DNA of 22,526 nt from a virus: positions 1 to 22,526 of IMG/VR virus record IMGVR_UViG_3300029309_000231. One strand, 5' to 3'. Positions 5,860 to 22,456 of this stretch are shown here, one piece after another. A program made the translations under genes and the position numbers. The notes under the pieces were generated by a model. That model was not told where the DNA came from. It did not search any database and saw only the letters and a list, made by a program, of their open reading frames with translations. Within the stretch, counting starts at the first letter, position 1, and each line of letters begins with the position of its first letter.

Positions 5860-6461
5860 CCATTAATCACGATCCAGTTTTTAGTGAAATACAAAAAATA
5901 AATCCATCAGCAATAATTGAGTTATTTACAATCGAGCTTGTTGTTGGACAGCATATTGCAACAGGTAATCCACAAAATTTACCAACAAAATATTATTTTC
6001 ATTCTGGATCTAATCTTAATGCTAATGGTGTAATTGTTTGGGCAACTGAGCTTTATCAAAGATTTCCAATTCAAGCAACAGGTTTTAAATATCAAAGAGG
6101 AAAAATTCCTAGACCTAGAGTTCAAATTAGTAACGCATTTGGAAATATGTCTGCAATTTTAGATTCTGTTAATAGTGTTACTCCTGGAAATGATTTAACA
6201 AATGCTACTTTTACAAGAATTAAAACAATGGCAAGATTTTTAGATGCTGTTAATTTTCCAAGTAATTCAAATCCTTATGGAACACCAGACCCTACAGCAG
6301 AATTTAAAAGACAAGTATATACAGTTGATAGAAAATCTATTGAGAACAGAGATATTGTTGAATTTGAATTAACTGGTTCAATAGACATGGCGGGAGTTAA
6401 AGCTCCTAGCAGACAATGCACAAGAGCATTATTTCCTTCTATAGGAACATTTAATCAATGA
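5856..6461 (+). CDS. Minor tail protein L-like, lacking the cysteine-rich C terminus
   Basis: A 201-residue homologue of lambda gpL by order (M-L-K) and by sequence: SEIQKINPSAIIELFTIEL, the YYFHSGSNLNANGVIVWATELYQ segment, PRPRVQISNAFGNMSAIL and the DRKSIENRDIVEFELTGSIDM region are the family core. gpL forms the ring at the tail tip that links tube and J. Lambda gpL has a C-terminal domain in which four cysteines hold an iron-sulfur cluster; here the protein stops soon after the first expected cysteine (SRQC near residue 188) and has only that one cysteine. The stop at 6459-6461 overlaps the K start (ATGA), and the K protein starts at its normal N terminus, so no lost segment hides downstream. 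Confidence 0.85.
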   Translation: MTINHDPVFSEIQKINPSAIIELFTIELVVGQHIATGNPQNLPTKYYFHSGSNLNANGVIVWATELYQRFPIQATGFKYQRGKIPRPRVQISNAFGNMSAILDSVNSVTPGNDLTNATFTRIKTMARFLDAVNFPSNSNPYGTPDPTAEFKRQVYTVDRKSIENRDIVEFELTGSIDMAGVKAPSRQCTRALFPSIGTFNQ

Positions 6462-7165
6462 ATTGGAAAAAAGACGCATTGTTTCATGCAAAAGAAGAAT
6501 ATCCAAAAGAATCTGTTGGTTTACTTTTAAATATAAAAGGTAAACAGAAATATTATCCTTGTAAAAATTTATCAATTACAGCTAATTATCAATTTATTTT
6601 AAACCCAGAAGATTATGTAAAAGCAGATAAGCTTGGTGACATAATAGCTATTGTTCATTCTCATCCCAATACTCCTCCAAAAGCAAGTGAGGCTGATTTA
6701 GTTAGTTGTGAAGATAGTAATTTGCCTTGGTATATTGTTAATCCAATAACAGAAGAATGGGCAGAATGTTTACCAAAGGCTTATGTTCCTAATTTATTAG
6801 GAAGATCTTGGGTTTGGGGTGTTACTGATTGTTGGTCTTTAGTGAGAGATTGGTATAGACAAAATAAAAACATACATTTAATAGATTATGAAAGATCTAT
6901 GACTCCAGAAGAATTTTTAAAAAATCCATTGTTTGAACAATATGCTCTAGATACTGGTTTTATAGAACTTCCGCCTTATGAACAAGCAAAAGAAGGAGAT
7001 GTTTTATTAATGTCTATAATGCACCCAACTTTAAATCATGTAGCAATTTTTCTTGGAGATATGGTTTTGCATCATTTAGCCGATAGACTATCTTGTAGAG
7101 AACCCTATTCTGAGTGGTTACAAAAATGTACAGCTAAGAGGTATCGTTATGCTCAGAACAGTTAA
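6458..7165 (+). CDS. Tail assembly protein K-like: JAMM peptidase plus NlpC/P60 hydrolase
   Basis: A 235-residue two-domain enzyme. Residues 1-105 are a JAB/MPN+ metalloprotease-like domain with its metal and catalytic set intact: Glu18 in PKESVGLLL and the H67-x-H69-P...S77-x-x-D80 motif (HSHPNTPPKASEAD). Residues 113-232 are an NlpC/P60 domain with nucleophile Cys125 (GVTDCWSLVRDWY), His194 (LNHVAIFLGD) and a polar residue in the following HHL (205-206). In lambda, K is needed for tail-tip assembly; in many phages the NlpC/P60 domain cuts peptidoglycan cross-links during entry. Both active sites look functional. It overlaps L by four bases and I by 17. Confidence 0.92.
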   Translation: MNWKKDALFHAKEEYPKESVGLLLNIKGKQKYYPCKNLSITANYQFILNPEDYVKADKLGDIIAIVHSHPNTPPKASEADLVSCEDSNLPWYIVNPITEEWAECLPKAYVPNLLGRSWVWGVTDCWSLVRDWYRQNKNIHLIDYERSMTPEEFLKNPLFEQYALDTGFIELPPYEQAKEGDVLLMSIMHPTLNHVAIFLGDMVLHHLADRLSCREPYSEWLQKCTAKRYRYAQNS

Positions 7166-14930: not shown

Positions 14931-16571
14931 ATGGCTAATGTCATCAAAAATAAAAGAGGTACAACAAAACCTAGTGCATCTGATTTAGTTGTTGGAGAAA
15001 TAGCAGTTAAAACAGATGACGCAAAATTATATATTGAAAATGATTCTGGATATGTTTTTGAAGTAGGTGAAACACTTGGTACTTATAGTAGTACAACGAT
15101 TACATATACAGTTACAGTCGCAACAAAAACAGCAGCTCATAGATATTACGGAACTGGATCTACACAAGGATATTTAATAAATGGTATTTTTTCTCCATTT
15201 TTATCTTTAGTGCCAGGTAATACCTATAAATTTGATCAGTCAGATAGTAGTAATAGTGGACATCCTTTTCGTTTTTATCTTGAAGCTGATAAAACTACAG
15301 CTTATACAACAAATGTAACTACTAACGGAACAGCAGGTTCTAGTGGTGCTTATACGCAAATTGTCGTAACAGATTCAACACCAATTATCTTGCATTACCA
15401 ATGCTCTGCTCATGGTTATATGGGAAATAGTGTCGCATCTAATAGTAATGCAATATTAACAGCAACAACTCAATCTACAAGTGATAATTCTACAAAAATT
15501 GCTACAACAGCTTTTACTCAGTCCGCAATAGGTAACGCAACCATATCAGGTTCACAAATTTCAACAAATGCTATAACCACAGCCAAAATAGCTGACTCAA
15601 CTGGATCATCTGATGGGATAACAACAGCCAAAATAGCCGATGATGCAGTCACTTATGCCAAAATCCAGAATGTATCCGCTACTGACAGATTATTAGGTAG
15701 AGATTCATCTGGTGCAGGTGTTGTAGAAGAGATAGCTCCAAGTGCAGTAAGAACAATGCTTGGACTTGCTGCTTCTGCAACCACAGATACAACTAATGCA
15801 GCTAATATTTCATCTGGAACTATACCTACAGCTAGGTTAGGATCAGGAACAGCTAGTTCGTCTACATTTTTAAGAGGAGATTCAACATTTCAGACAATAA
15901 ATACTGACTTAGTAAATGACACATCGCCACAGCTAGGCGGTCTTTTAGACACAAATGGTTCAAATATTAAATTTGCTGATAGTTCTGGTGCAACAGTTAA
16001 TAGAGCAGTATTCGGAACTGGTGATGATTTACAAATTTATCATTCTGGGAATAATAATGTTATAGATTCAAACAATAGTTGGTTAAATATAACCTCAGAT
16101 GGAGGTGTAGCGATAAGGCATGAAGTTCAAGCTGATGGATCAGATGGCGAAAATATGGCGATGTTCCACCCTGATGGAGCAGTAGAGCTATATTACGACA
16201 ATTCTAAAAAGCTGGAAACAGTAACAGGGGGCGTTAATATTACAGGTGCTTTAGTAGCATCAGGTGATGTAACTGCATTTTCTGATTTAAGATTAAAAAC
16301 TGATATTCATACAATTAAAGATGCTTTAGATATTGTTAGCAATTTAAGAGGTGTTGCTTATAAATGGCTTAATAATGGCAAAAGTAGTATTGGTGTTATT
16401 GCACAAGAAGTTGAACAAGTTATACCTGAGATAGTAACAACTAATAAAGACTTGATATTTGATGGAGCTAAAGACGTTAAATCAATTGATTATGGAAAAA
16501 TTGTAAGTGTTCTTATAAATGCAGTAAATGAATTGAAAGCAGAATTAGATGAAATGAAAGGAGTTTTATAA
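14931..16571 (+). CDS. Tail fibre with cupredoxin-like domain and C-terminal S74 autochaperone
   Basis: A 546-residue fibre behind an AGGAG site. Residues 1-48 repeat the anchor type of the fibre before it (VIKNKRGTTKPSASDLVVGEIAVKTDDAKLYI). Residues about 58-170 resemble a cupredoxin: His111 in SGHPFRF, then Cys158, His161 and Met164 in CSAHGYMG. Residues 175-440 are typical shaft sequence (ITTAKIADDAVTYAKI; DDLQIYHSGNNNVI; GAVELYYDNSKKLET). From about 450 (FSDLRLKTDI...GVIAQEVEQVIPEI) it carries a peptidase_S74 intramolecular chaperone, which helps the trimer fold and then usually cuts itself off at the Ser-Asp step (S451-D452). The last residues are a coiled coil. The stop shares a base with the next ATG. 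Confidence 0.88.
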   Translation: MANVIKNKRGTTKPSASDLVVGEIAVKTDDAKLYIENDSGYVFEVGETLGTYSSTTITYTVTVATKTAAHRYYGTGSTQGYLINGIFSPFLSLVPGNTYKFDQSDSSNSGHPFRFYLEADKTTAYTTNVTTNGTAGSSGAYTQIVVTDSTPIILHYQCSAHGYMGNSVASNSNAILTATTQSTSDNSTKIATTAFTQSAIGNATISGSQISTNAITTAKIADSTGSSDGITTAKIADDAVTYAKIQNVSATDRLLGRDSSGAGVVEEIAPSAVRTMLGLAASATTDTTNAANISSGTIPTARLGSGTASSSTFLRGDSTFQTINTDLVNDTSPQLGGLLDTNGSNIKFADSSGATVNRAVFGTGDDLQIYHSGNNNVIDSNNSWLNITSDGGVAIRHEVQADGSDGENMAMFHPDGAVELYYDNSKKLETVTGGVNITGALVASGDVTAFSDLRLKTDIHTIKDALDIVSNLRGVAYKWLNNGKSSIGVIAQEVEQVIPEIVTTNKDLIFDGAKDVKSIDYGKIVSVLINAVNELKAELDEMKGVL

Positions 16572-17821
16572 TGCCTTGCCCTGCTAGTGGAACTATTAAG
16601 ATACAAGACATAGTAGATGAGTTTGGAGGTTCAGCACCACATTCATTATCAGAATATTATAGAAACGGTGGTGAAATACCAGGAAATAATACAAATGTTC
16701 CTGAGTCTGGACAAATATCATTAACTGATTTTTATAGTGCAGTTAATGAAATACAGCATACTCATAGTGATGGAGATACTCATGCTAATTATTCGACAAT
16801 TTTTGGCAGCAATTATGCTTCAGCAGTTCCGAAAAGAGTTATTGTCCCTAGTGGAGTAACAGTTGGAGGCACAACAACACACGCTATGCTTTTACCTTCT
16901 GGTATGGGCGGCACAATAGTTTTTGATATTACTGGAAATGTACATGGATATGCAGGTTCAGCTAATGGAGGTAATGGTGGAAATGCTATTCATTGTGTAC
17001 AAACAAGTAATGTAACGATAAATATAAATTCTGGAGGGGCTGTAAAAGCTGGAGGTGGAGGTGGTGGACAAGGTGGATCGGGAGGAACAGGAGGAGCTGG
17101 AGGAACAGGAGGAGCTGGAGGTAACAGTAGAAGTGCTTATAATTCTGCTATCGCAGGTTTAGGTAGATACAATAATTATTATGGTGTGCCTGGTACAGGA
17201 TGTTGTGAGTATGCAGACCTAAGTTATTTTCCTACAATTCCAGCTAGTTGTTGTACTTGTAGTAACTCGCCTGCTGCTTCTAATTTTGGATATATTGGTA
17301 ATACTTTTTGTGCGTTTCAAGGTAATAATACTTGCACTTATTTCGCACGTTGTTATTCTTACAACTATACAAATGGTGGAGCTGGAGGTTCAGGAGGTTC
17401 AGGAGGTTCAGGGGGTTCGGGTGGTTCGGGTGGAATAGGTCAAGGTTACAATCAATCTGCGGCTTCTGGGTCGGCAGGTTCTAGTGGATCGGCAGGTTCT
17501 TCTGGATCTTCTGGATCAAGTTCTTCAGCAGGTAATGGTGGTACAGGCGGTAGCGGAGGTCAAGGAGGGACTGGTGGAACTGGTGGAACTGGAGGGTCGT
17601 TTGGCTCATCAGGAAATCAAGGGGCTACAGGTAATCAGGGAGCTACAGGTAATACAGGGAGTAGTGGTAGTAATGGTAACTACCAAAATGGAGCAAGCGG
17701 TAACGCAGGGTCTTCTGGATCAGCAGGTTCATCTGGTGCAGCAGGTGGACAAGCAGGCTATTATATATTTAACAGATCATCAATCACTTTAAACAATTCA
17801 GGCACCGTAGCAGGTCAGTAA
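16571..17821 (+). CDS. Glycine-rich adhesin-like tail protein with an eight-cysteine insertion
   Basis: A 416-residue protein behind a strong AAAGGAG site. Residues 8-58 (IKIQDIVDEFGGSAPHSLSEYYRNGG...GQISLTDFY) form an N-terminal module common in marine phage tail proteins. A beta region follows, ending SNVTININSGGAVKAG. Residues 161-184 and 269-395 are almost pure Gly/Ser/Thr/Ala with GGT, GGS and GAT triplets, as in polyglycine-helix adhesins such as gp38 of T-even-like phages. Between them (185-268) is a loop with Cys211, 212, 227, 228, 230, 247, 255 and 261 plus many Tyr and Asn. It closes with AGYYIFNRSSITLNNSGTV. It is likely the tip that touches the receptor. The +1 frame is also open over 17484-17792, but only because of the repeats. 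Confidence 0.72.
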   Translation: MPCPASGTIKIQDIVDEFGGSAPHSLSEYYRNGGEIPGNNTNVPESGQISLTDFYSAVNEIQHTHSDGDTHANYSTIFGSNYASAVPKRVIVPSGVTVGGTTTHAMLLPSGMGGTIVFDITGNVHGYAGSANGGNGGNAIHCVQTSNVTININSGGAVKAGGGGGGQGGSGGTGGAGGTGGAGGNSRSAYNSAIAGLGRYNNYYGVPGTGCCEYADLSYFPTIPASCCTCSNSPAASNFGYIGNTFCAFQGNNTCTYFARCYSYNYTNGGAGGSGGSGGSGGSGGSGGIGQGYNQSAASGSAGSSGSAGSSGSSGSSSSAGNGGTGGSGGQGGTGGTGGTGGSFGSSGNQGATGNQGATGNTGSSGSNGNYQNGASGNAGSSGSAGSSGAAGGQAGYYIFNRSSITLNNSGTVAGQ

Positions 17822-18253: not shown

Positions 18254-18655
18254 ATGGGTTTACCTCAATTTTTGTACAATCCATTTACTGATGAATCTCC
18301 TTTATATAGAACTTCAGAAGTATTTGAAAAAGTATCAGCAAATACTTTGCAATTAGTAATGTTCAAAGATATTCATTTTGGTACACAATATAAACAAGAA
18401 GAATTTGCACCTATTTCTAAAAATAGAATTTTAGGAGCAGATATTAGATACCCTCCTATAATTTATAAAGCAACAAAAGAAAAATATAAACCAAAATATT
18501 GTGTTTATGATGGAAGACATAGATTACATAGACTGCAACAAGAGGGTAAAACTTCAACTGTTTGTTTTATCTTAAAACCTACTATTTTTGAGAAAATAAG
18601 ATCAATTCCTAACCCTTATTATCAAGGTAATTTATGTATTGGTTGTGGTGAATGA
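18254..18655 (+). CDS. ParB/sulfiredoxin-fold protein
   Basis: A 133-residue protein. Residues 63-107 carry the ParB/Srx signature: DIRYPPIIYK strand, a lysine-rich turn, then CVYDGRHRLHRLQQEGKT (DGRHR at 86-90) and strand VCFIL. The fold serves as a DNA-binding CTPase, nuclease, phosphotransferase or sulfiredoxin-type enzyme. This copy has no helix-turn-helix DNA-binding domain and lacks the ParB-CTPase length, so partition is unlikely. It ends with CIGCGE, a CxxC that could bind a metal. Its stop overlaps the oxygenase start (ATGA at 18652-18655), so the two are probably made together. The substrate is unknown. Confidence 0.7.
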   Translation: MGLPQFLYNPFTDESPLYRTSEVFEKVSANTLQLVMFKDIHFGTQYKQEEFAPISKNRILGADIRYPPIIYKATKEKYKPKYCVYDGRHRLHRLQQEGKTSTVCFILKPTIFEKIRSIPNPYYQGNLCIGCGE

Positions 18656-19248
18656 AAAGTGTAAAAGTAATTGATGAATTTTTGCCAAGAGAAATTTTTA
18701 TACCTCATGCAAATGGTTTGATGCAACAATCTATTTATGCACCTATTAATTTTACTATTGATACAGAAAAAGAAAGAGATGGGTCAATAGTTAATTTTGG
18801 CGAATTATTATATCCAGAAGCTCCAAAATTTAATTTTCAATTCCAAGCTGTTTTATATAGGCATAGAAATGATAAAGCAGTAATATCTGATGTTTGGTTT
18901 GATTTAAAACTTTTTTTTGATGAATTAAAAAAGAAATTACAGATTAATCAACTTAAAGTTGCAAGAATAAATTGTAATACTGTTGCTGATAAACAATATG
19001 AGGGAGAATATCATACAGATTACGACATATCAATACAACAAGATATGCCATTTTTCTTTACTGCAATTTTATATTTTAACTCTAACAATGGTGGTACACG
19101 TTTTGAAAATGGTCAATTTGTACAAAGTAAAGCCAATAGATGTGTTATTTTTCCTACTGAAATGAAACATTGCACAGTATGGCAGACAGATGCCAAAATG
19201 AGATTTGTATTAAATCTAAATTATTTTGTTGATAATTTTGATGATTAA
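18652..19248 (+). CDS. 2-oxoglutarate/Fe(II)-dependent oxygenase
   Basis: A 198-residue protein of the prolyl-4-hydroxylase-like dioxygenase superfamily. Iron ligands are visible as His121-x-Asp123 in YHTDYD and His173 in MKHCTV; Arg184 in AKMRFVLNLNYF is placed to hold the 2-oxoglutarate tail carboxylate. The strand FTAILYFNSNNGGTRFENG and the FPTEMKHCTVWQTD turn are typical of the double-stranded beta-helix. The enzyme would hydroxylate an unknown substrate (protein side chain, DNA base, or metabolite) using iron, O2 and 2-oxoglutarate. Enzymes of this type are common in cyanophage genomes, though mostly unassigned. It overlaps the ParB-fold gene by four bases. Confidence 0.82.
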   Translation: MKSVKVIDEFLPREIFIPHANGLMQQSIYAPINFTIDTEKERDGSIVNFGELLYPEAPKFNFQFQAVLYRHRNDKAVISDVWFDLKLFFDELKKKLQINQLKVARINCNTVADKQYEGEYHTDYDISIQQDMPFFFTAILYFNSNNGGTRFENGQFVQSKANRCVIFPTEMKHCTVWQTDAKMRFVLNLNYFVDNFDD

Positions 19249-20512: not shown

Positions 20513-21226
20513 TTATTTTGTCTTGATTTCGTGCGTATGTGGTATAACTTGATTTGGTGGTACTGTTACTTTTATCCCTTCACAAATCTCTGCATATTTT
20601 CCAGTAAAGGTTACTCCTAGTTTCGCTTGCTTTGCACAGACCTCTAAACGAAAGAGTGCCATCTCCAATGCCTGTTTCTGGTATAGCAATTCTTGGTTTT
20701 TAATATTTACTTCTGTAGCCTTAAGACATAAATCAGGTGCTTTACCTAAAGGAATACTGATCTGTGCTGAGATCCCATAGTTCAAGTTATAATTATCTTT
20801 TTCAAATCTTGGTGTCTCCTGTACATACTTAATCGCTCCAGTATCTTCATCGTAAATATTTTGTCTAGTTACAGTTTCTTTTGGTCTATTAAATGACCAC
20901 GCATCTGTCACATAAGGAGTAATCGTTAGACTTGGAGAAGAACAGACAATACCTTGTGACATCCTAAATTGTGGAGTGCTTTGCGGAGCAATCATAGTCG
21001 CATTATTATTTACTGTTCCTTGTGCATTAGAGCTAGGACTTGCAACCGTAGTATTAGCCAAAACCTTTGTAGGGCAAAGGATTAGAGCTATTGCCCAAAT
21101 GTAGTTTCTACGGTTGTTGTGGTGGTTGTATTTATAGTGCGATTTATTTGGGTAATGGTGTCGATGCCTGGTGTCATTACTGTCTCTACCAAACTGAATG
21201 GCTGAGACTCGTTTACGATCTTCCAT
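20513..21226 (-). CDS. Exported or membrane-anchored cysteine-containing protein, start uncertain
   Basis: The reading frame from ATG 21226 gives 237 residues. A signal-like hydrophobic run (RRNYIWAIALILCPTKVLA) occurs only at residues 39-57, after a His/Arg-rich stretch that overlaps the previous gene for 139 bases, so the true start may be later. No ATG, GTG or TTG exists in frame nearer the signal; only rare codons do, ATT at 21098-21100 or ATA at 21089-21091. After the signal the protein has a Ser/Thr/Asn-rich spacer, a beta segment (SLTITPYVTDAW; YGISAQISIPLG) and a helical C-terminal part with three cysteines (DLC, EVC, EIC), plus one earlier (GIVC). It resembles, from memory, exported hypothetical proteins of marine cyanophages. 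No function is known. Confidence 0.6.
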   Translation of the reverse strand: MEDRKRVSAIQFGRDSNDTRHRHHYPNKSHYKYNHHNNRRNYIWAIALILCPTKVLANTTVASPSSNAQGTVNNNATMIAPQSTPQFRMSQGIVCSSPSLTITPYVTDAWSFNRPKETVTRQNIYDEDTGAIKYVQETPRFEKDNYNLNYGISAQISIPLGKAPDLCLKATEVNIKNQELLYQKQALEMALFRLEVCAKQAKLGVTFTGKYAEICEGIKVTVPPNQVIPHTHEIKTK

Positions 21227-21525
21227 CTAGGCATACCCTCCAAGGTAGGACTTGTATAAGAAAAATTAATTCCATTTACTGTTTGTGTAGCTTCTGCTGT
21301 TGGTATTGCATTAATATATCCATTTACATCAGCACTTTCAATGTTAGTGCCACTAACACCAACTGAATACCCTGTCCTATACTGATAGCTCGTAATAGAT
21401 TCCGTTATGACTGATTGAGAAGTGCTGTTTGTCGAGGAACTACCTGTCCTGAAGGTTGGGACGACAGGATTTGCAAGGGTTTTGACAGGAAATAATATAA
21501 AAAATAGCAGCCAAAATTTAATCAA
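21088..21525 (-). CDS. Small exported protein with signal peptide, TTG start
   Basis: I choose TTG at 21523-21525 over the ATG at 21561. TTG overlaps the upstream stop in the sequence TTGA, and it puts the signal peptide MIKFWLLFFILFPVKTLA right at the N terminus, cleaved before NPVVP. The 145-residue protein is then about 127 mature residues rich in Ser, Thr, Asn and Tyr, with segments SYQYRTGYSVGVSGTNIESADVNG, FSYTSPTLEG and a threonine-rich end (INRTINTTTTTTVETTFG). It looks like a secreted or periplasmic beta-rich protein. Its signal end (FPVKTLAN) resembles that of the next gene (CPTKVLAN). Neighbours upstream and downstream overlap it, so the group is one operon. No function is recognised. 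Confidence 0.65.
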   Translation of the reverse strand: MIKFWLLFFILFPVKTLANPVVPTFRTGSSSTNSTSQSVITESITSYQYRTGYSVGVSGTNIESADVNGYINAIPTAEATQTVNGINFSYTSPTLEGMPRWKIVNESQPFSLVETVMTPGIDTITQINRTINTTTTTTVETTFGQ

Positions 21526-22040
21526 TCTATGGTTATTTGAACAGTAGTAGATCCAATGCAACTAGAACCTGATCCAAATGCACCGCTACAAGTATGGACT
21601 CCTGATGATAAAGAAGTCATTGCTCCGCTACCTAATGTTCCTCCAGAACCTATGGTTGTAGCTCCCGATAGATGAGGTAGTGCTGCTATTCCTGATGATG
21701 GTGTAACTGCTGATGGTGTTGCGTCACCCATAGTTACAGATTCAGTTAAAGAAAAAGCTGACCCTGCTGTTGCTACTGCCTTATCAGTTTGTATAAGAGC
21801 AGGTACACCTGCGGTTAAACTGCCTACATTCAATCCTCCGATGGCATTAGAGGTGGTTGATCCCCCAGATGTCACTGATGGAGTGATATTTGACCCGCTA
21901 AGACTGTACGTAGTTCCCAATTTCTGAGTCGTTACAAATGGCATATCTACTGAAATTTGGGCTGATGTCACGAATTTCTGCTGGATGTCGGCATAGCTAG
22001 GACTTGCAACTAATAGCAATAATGGAAGTAGTTTTTTCAT
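21522..22040 (-). CDS. Small exported protein, Gly/Ser/Thr-rich, signal peptide
   Basis: A 172-residue protein opening with a textbook signal peptide, MKKLLPLLLLVASPSYA, cleaved before DIQQK. The rest has a beta-repeat character: ISVDMPFVTTQKLGTTYSLSGSNITPSV, then Gly/Ser-rich turns, FSLTESVTMGDATPSAV, LPHLSGATTIGSGG, and a C-terminal CSGAFGSGSSCIGSTTVQITID with two cysteines that may form a disulfide. It looks like an outer-surface or periplasmic beta protein. I recall similar signal-peptide proteins with 'Y.vsGsNi' as hypothetical genes of marine cyanophages, unverified here. It overlaps the gene before it by the four bases ATGA and the gene after it by TTGA. Confidence 0.68.
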   Translation of the reverse strand: MKKLLPLLLLVASPSYADIQQKFVTSAQISVDMPFVTTQKLGTTYSLSGSNITPSVTSGGSTTSNAIGGLNVGSLTAGVPALIQTDKAVATAGSAFSLTESVTMGDATPSAVTPSSGIAALPHLSGATTIGSGGTLGSGAMTSLSSGVHTCSGAFGSGSSCIGSTTVQITID

Positions 22041-22456
22041 TTCTTAATCTCCTTAATTACTTCTGGTTTACTTGTAATTAGTTCTATTGGCTGTCTTATT
22101 ATTATAGTCTGTTGTCCACTAGCGTTTGTATTGTATGCTGCGGACGCTTCATCTTCTTTCTTTTTTTTCTTTGCTCCACTAGCAGCACCAACAGAAACAC
22201 CCCATCCCGCAAGGATATTGCCCAAGAGACCTGCAGCAAAAGTCGAATCCACACGCGGCTGGTCTGGAATATCAAGACCAAATAACTTATTAGGTAATTT
22301 TATATAGCCTAAAGATAAAACTATTAAACACCAAGCAAGTATAGCTCCTTGTGCTGTAGTGCTTACTAAAAACATAATTTTCTCCTGATAGTCAGGCTTG
22401 TCATCGTCTATTTGTTTATTCTTTTGTTGTGATTCTTTTTGAGTTTCTGTTGTCAT
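22037..22456 (-). CDS. Two-helix membrane protein, holin-like layout
   Basis: A 139-residue protein with a charged N terminus (MTTETQKESQQKNKQIDDDK), a first membrane helix at about 27-51 (IMFLVSTTAQGAILAWCLIVLSLGYI), a short loop (KLPNKLFGLDIPDQPRVD), a second hydrophobic segment at about 72-93 (FAAGLLGNILAGWGVSVGAASG), then a lysine-rich run (KKKKKED) and a polar tail. Two helices plus a basic tail is the layout of class II holins, but it fits other small membrane proteins too, and no endolysin lies next to it in this window. It is the first gene of the minus-strand operon and begins in a short divergent gap. Confidence 0.65.
   Translation of the reverse strand: MTTETQKESQQKNKQIDDDKPDYQEKIMFLVSTTAQGAILAWCLIVLSLGYIKLPNKLFGLDIPDQPRVDSTFAAGLLGNILAGWGVSVGAASGAKKKKKEDEASAAYNTNASGQQTIIIRQPIELITSKPEVIKEIKK

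Follow-up and report, generated by a model that had tools for sequence, protein, structure and literature searches.

The tail-fibre protein encoded at 14931–16571 of the window (the whole 22,526-nucleotide stretch analysed, taken from a viral record of 29,948 bases) almost certainly houses a cupredoxin domain in which the type-1 ligand set is intact. The fold, the ligand set, its selective upkeep and the modular spread of the domain in virion proteins are established computationally. The explanation that fits best, and that we hold with somewhat better than even confidence, is a mobile type-1-copper module serving as a virion building block, in which a real cupredoxin domain has a metal-loaded site that mainly clamps the beta-sandwich. 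Taken part by part, the domain is probably metal-loaded in virions, copper would be the main metal at the site with fair likelihood, and a mainly structural role of the metal site is proposed tentatively, at a little short of an even chance. An earlier sequence-only reading of this DNA had pointed to the domain; its observation is confirmed, and its interpretation is supported in part.

The fibre and its genomic setting

The open reading frame at 14931–16571 (plus strand, as are all features of the protein given below) encodes 546 amino acids with strong matches to PHROGs tail-fibre families, the best being phrog_30742 (7.8e-62, residues 49–234). The N-terminal segment (KRGTTKPSASDLVVGEIAVKT..., 14931–15065) is without a Pfam match, and this start recurs directly before the domain in several relatives among L001–L016; these first ~50 residues, common to the relatives, probably form the virion-attaching end. 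The cupredoxin domain follows them and thus does not lie at the fibre tip. Its core, delimited by AlphaFold2 and PDB fold matches, covers residues ~56–170 (to ~172; 15096–15440), close to the span of 15102–15440 (residues 58–170) proposed from the letters. The translation places the four ligand positions exactly where they had been noticed: His111 as the first copper ligand position (15261–15263), Cys158 as the thiolate ligand position (15402–15404), His161 as the second His (15411–15413) and Met164 as the axial position (15420–15422). A C-terminal Peptidase_S74 intramolecular chaperone (residues 451–502, 16281–16436; Pfam PF13884, 4.3e-16) identifies the protein as a phage tail fibre of the S74-chaperone type, which is presumably trimeric.

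Upstream of the fibre lies a lambda-like tail module (tape measure, minor tail proteins and a J-like protein), and the phage is probably marine, as suggested by the isolate hosts among the matches listed, which are marine. Several neighbouring genes are recorded here as observations in their own right. The protein encoded at 6458–7165 resembles Lambda K in joining a JAB metalloprotease domain to an NlpC/P60 domain. The frame directly after the fibre (16571–17821), for which a Pfam match was not found, is very Gly-rich, with long GGxGG/GSSG repeats and a cysteine cluster (CCEY, CCTC). Beyond the tail module there are two 2OG-Fe(II) oxygenase-like genes (PF13640), one at 18652–19248 of the window and the other at L276:719–1300; the PF13640 score of the former is below the cut-off, and its PHROGs label 'DNA endonuclease V' looks wrong. 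At 20513–22456, four consecutive open reading frames run on the minus strand, opposite to the tail genes, some of them with signal-peptide-like starts and Ser/Thr/Gly-rich bodies.

Fold and kinship to copper proteins

Residues 46–178 were modelled by AlphaFold2 from an alignment (A2) of 51 divergent copies from the window and fetched loci. The model is a beta-sandwich of nine strands (mean pLDDT 90.9, pTM 0.84), as predicted for a member of the cupredoxin superfamily with its Greek-key beta-sandwich of about eight strands. In the canonical cupredoxin layout, a His stands before a strand and the Cys-His-Met cluster lies in the loop before the last strand. The same strand order is seen in the model, where the first His precedes a strand and Cys, His and Met lie in the loop preceding the last strand (H66, C113, H116 and M119 in model numbering); the secondary structure of the model and profile alignments with PDB entries thus both put the ligands of a type-1 copper site at their canonical places. 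In a Foldseek search of the PDB, rusticyanin takes the top eight matches (best E 6.4e-4), followed by small laccases, multicopper oxidases and copper nitrite reductase (NirK), and a pseudoazurin with an engineered amicyanin ligand loop stands at rank 26. Interspersed are a few entries for other beta-sandwiches, namely SO1698 peptidase and coagulation factor V, the latter of which itself has ceruloplasmin-type domains. VIA-align gives Z 9.0 to the N-terminal domain of NirK and ~8 to small laccases; Z scores of 7–8 are weak taken alone, but every one of the 50 rows listed is a copper protein. Identities to the PDB structural matches are low (about 8–17%) and TM-scores modest. Structure prediction and comparison with solved structures, in which the best matches are copper proteins, thereby bear out, at the level of a model, the cupredoxin-like fold first suspected from the letters. 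T4 gp9 does not appear among the fold matches listed, but its absence rules nothing out. Small 'beta-sandwich proteins' of Pithovirus/Marseillevirus relatives (LCPAC302, LCMAC201/202) in BFVD match the same fold (A0A481Z6J5, A0A481YY19, A0A481YWX9), in one case over almost the whole 124 aa with TM 0.77.

The window domain alone has no Pfam match, and neither a single-sequence PDB search nor NCBIfam gave anything useful, so that its kinship to copper proteins is visible only through profiles and structure. A phage-only profile run against the PDB finds copper nitrite reductase first (2e-6; also 8e-6) and then pseudoazurin, copper oxidases, plastocyanins and amicyanins, with the C, H and M ligands aligned in the alignments shown. 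Divergent copies from phages P-HM1 and P-HM2 reach about 1e-3 against Pfam Copper-bind (PF00127), below the curated cut-off (19.9 bits for divergent relatives against a gathering cut-off of 21.2), and the P-HM2 copy reaches 6.6e-5 against NCBIfam amicyanin, again below the curated cut-off. The window domain itself matches neither the plastocyanin (TIGR02656) nor the amicyanin (TIGR02657) equivalog, and its best relative scores 23.2 bits against the latter, for which the cut-off is 110.2. Judged by these scores, the domain would at most work like plastocyanin or amicyanin and belongs to neither equivalog; it is a divergent cupredoxin with an amicyanin-type loop that falls short of the curated cut-off of each named family tested.

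Kinship to the superfamily is also indicated by a secreted Prochlorococcus cupredoxin (L264, L267–L273), which the phage profile matches in 8 of the 41 sampled genomes at about 1e-12 to 1e-10. It scores 58 bits with the second copy of P-HM2, matches the second copy of P-HM1 strongly as well, and in all eight cases carries H...C-x2-H-x4-M behind a signal-peptide-like start. On these matches it appears to be the bridge between the phage domain and known cupredoxins. Within the Prochlorococcus group, this small secreted protein is distinct from plastocyanin. A further open frame of this group (321 aa, L274, G039:C122:72554–72811) carries a cupredoxin-like stretch (SHPFYI...FCTSHASM) in its N-terminal part, with other sequence behind it.

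Upkeep and loss of the ligand set

Of 232 distinct domain sequences gathered, 222 have the four positions aligned, two run off the end of their contigs, and in the other eight the Cys-His-Met part is missing from that alignment. The H-C-H-M set is present in all 222 distinct alignable copies, and identity to the window copy among the collected sequences goes down to 23% (median 51%). In alignment A2, whose 51 copies are 19–75% identical to the window copy, the only invariant positions are H111, Y156, C158, H161 and M164; the chance that four preselected positions all belong to the five invariant ones out of 127 comes to about 5e-7, an estimate that ignores the general tendency of Cys and His to be conserved. 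Search bias was considered, as some probe peptides of the IMG/VR scans made with the window and L019 queries contained the ligand motif. The probes of the scan with the S-B68 copy were without the His or Cys ligands (one contained Met), and HCHM was nevertheless found in 72 of 72 distinct copies. Synonymous codons are mixed at the ligand sites, with CAT/CAC at 135/90 for H111, TGC/TGT at 113/111 for Cys and CAT/CAC at 123/101 for the second His.

The loop C-x2-H-x2-M of the window copy, shared by 202 of the 222 copies, is of the amicyanin type, the amicyanin ligands being Cys92, His95 and Met98 (PMC12723479). The sequence-only reading had instead compared the ligand loop with plastocyanin. The values that it gave, a 47-residue His-Cys spacing and a C-x2-H step, are correct; the equality with plastocyanin is incidental, since the H-C distance ranges from 41 to 63 among the relatives, and the match of spacings was rejected as meaningful. 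Likewise, the Met does lie two residues closer than in plastocyanin (C+6), which is no oddity but the normal amicyanin spacing (PMC12723479). In a sub-group of 20 copies (among L228–L258), the loop is two residues longer (C-x4-H-x2-M, as in CTVPSHASM and similar) with Cys, His and Met kept, a length nearer to that of azurin or rusticyanin. An intradomain disulfide was rejected as a role for the Cys, which is single per domain in 219 of the 222 copies and is the sole cysteine of the whole window fibre.

Five copies among the relatives (L249, L251, L253, L259 and L260) are ligand-free and provide a natural control. Four of them, aligned with ligand-bearing copies, match throughout the domain, and in each of them the four ligands have gone together; L166 has the same inserted hairpin yet retains the ligands. 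When one ligand-free copy was modelled (pLDDT 74.7), its fold matches included the cupredoxin AcoP (2e-5), laccases and rusticyanin. An HMM built from a ligand-free seed came to recruit the ligand-bearing family, which speaks for the kinship of both kinds, and no clean ligand-free set was obtained. The cupredoxin fold can therefore serve without metal, and the ligands, where kept, are kept as a full set. The existence of ligand-free copies that still match the fold is what might be expected if the domain were only a cupredoxin-like scaffold, either with inherited relic ligands or as a carbohydrate- or protein-binding beta-sandwich. This is the least probable of the readings considered, because conservation in the family is highest at the ligands, which are either all retained or all missing, and the synonymous sites at their codons are mixed. 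The presence of H-C-H-M in all alignable copies, the mixed codons and the whole-set loss argue that the intact ligands are selected; relic ligands on a scaffold, one of the options of the earlier reading, are contradicted for the window copy, since ligand-free copies still match cupredoxins.

Distribution of the domain and proposed role of its probable metal site

In IMG/VR, the window query has 494 confirmed stretches as relatives of the domain; the S-B68 copy yields at least 599 and the L019 copy 166. Up to 339 isolate records match a gp9-type query copy. Nearly all isolate phages that match are marine, with Synechococcus, Prochlorococcus, Pelagibacter and Methylophilales as hosts. By this count of matches, the domain is not rare and appears to be widespread in marine phages, contrary to the notion that it is unusual in the sense of rare. 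The domain is carried by tail fibres, by the gp9 baseplate wedge/tail-fibre connector, by baseplate wedge proteins and by further structural proteins of the virion, one of them a portal-neighbouring virion protein. In gp9 of S-SSM5, the domain is at the C-terminal end. A related C-terminal cupredoxin-type domain is found in gp9 of Synechococcus/Prochlorococcus phages (L277:2001–2360; H129–H143 and 324 further records). Since it occurs at many chain positions and behind different N-terminal segments, the domain behaves as a mobile module. Among the open-access papers listed, in one case the best 20 of 43, no report of a cupredoxin, blue-copper or copper-binding domain was found for phage, cyanophage, tail fibre or virion, and the phage domain is apparently undescribed.

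In the mechanism proposed, the N-terminal part of an S74-type tail fibre houses the cupredoxin domain with His111, Cys158, His161 and Met164; the predicted site would be filled in the virion, most likely by copper gained after lysis or at assembly; and the main job of the metal would be to lock the beta-sandwich into a hard-wearing block for fibres and baseplates. Stabilisation is favoured over receptor binding or electron carriage between host proteins, because the domain is found in unrelated structural proteins and hosts, in places that have no tie to contact with a receptor. The receptor-binding link suggested earlier is accordingly not supported, the domain being near the N terminus here and elsewhere in gp9 and other structural proteins. 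As it is found again in tail and baseplate proteins of hundreds of marine phages, metal, most likely copper, is probably present in the tails of many phages of the ocean. Ligand-free copies show that the fold stands without metal, so that stabilisation by metal is not strictly needed everywhere, and a type-1 site tuned for electron transfer is more than bare stabilisation would require, which counts against a structural role.

The main rival is a redox-active or sensory copper site that exchanges electrons or copper at the cell surface or with respiratory or periplasmic partners of the host, the exchange helping adsorption or triggering a change of the fibre. It would account for the upkeep of a complete redox-tuned site, axial Met included, for loop lengths that vary as among electron carriers, and for the kinship with a secreted Prochlorococcus cupredoxin with a signal-peptide-like start; but the domain lies mid-chain, N-terminally or in gp9 and not at fibre tips, and phages of unrelated hosts carry it, which makes this role rather unlikely. 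The earlier suggestion that the domain mimics a host electron carrier finds no positive support, as Pelagibacter and Methylophilales phages carry the domain besides cyanobacterial ones, although this Prochlorococcus protein is a real relative. The broader proposal that copper is a constituent of the particles of marine tailed phages as a group, with many type-1 centres per virion derived from host-type cupredoxins and a redox- or copper-dependent host contact, is also unlikely, if slightly less so.

Two other readings concern the metal itself. Cys-His-His-Met sites can also hold Zn or Ag, and copper loading is uncertain because the protein folds in the cytosol, where free copper is scarce. Cupredoxin sites expressed in the bacterial cytosol are often filled with zinc, and phage proteins fold there, so zinc, or some other soft metal, might fill the site in nature with a purely structural role; the invariant axial Met argues for the preference of a copper site rather than a zinc site, and this reading is judged quite improbable. 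Still more doubtful, and only slightly above the bare scaffold, is metal as cargo or bait, in which the virion scavenges scarce copper or a metal-uptake receptor of the host recognises the loaded fibre. Such a role would transfer to copper the 'Ferrojan Horse' idea, which was put forward for iron in tails. Gp9 and fibres would be expected to supply several copies per particle, and iron-binding tail fibres are discussed for marine phages (PMC11705849). No copper-receptor link is present in our data, however, and cupredoxins hold copper tightly and partly buried, which is unsuited to release or recognition.

If the structural block is indeed metal-loaded, a type-1-copper site in very abundant ocean viruses would tie phage particles to marine copper chemistry. 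Copper would join the small list of tail metals, and an explanation would be given for a module whose annotation is now limited to 'tail fiber', 'hypothetical' or 'virion structural protein'.

Among known systems, the iron sites of phage tail proteins use His-x-His. Iron-site fibres and spikes resemble the window fibre in having a metal site, here predicted, inside a tail structural protein, whereas the predicted site of the phage domain is of a Cys-containing copper type in a different fold (for iron-binding fibre domains, see PMC11705849). Cyanophage gp9 among the IMG/VR relatives carries, at its C terminus, a copy of the domain that has all four ligands, although gp9 is a core baseplate protein and the window protein a fibre. 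Rusticyanin, the N-terminal domain of copper nitrite reductase and small laccases are the best fold matches; rusticyanin is an acid-stable electron carrier and NirK and laccases are multi-copper enzymes, whereas the phage domain has no sign of a second copper centre. The secreted Prochlorococcus cupredoxin shares the order H...C-x2-H...M with the phage domain but is a stand-alone protein of ~140 aa with its own signal-peptide-like start and a C-x2-H-x4-M loop. Amicyanin, plastocyanin and pseudoazurin have in common with the phage domain the cupredoxin fold, the order His...Cys-x2-His...Met and Tyr-x-Cys before the loop, and the loop C-x2-H-x2-M is that of amicyanin; these proteins are free electron carriers in the periplasm or lumen, whereas the phage domain is a module within a large virion protein.
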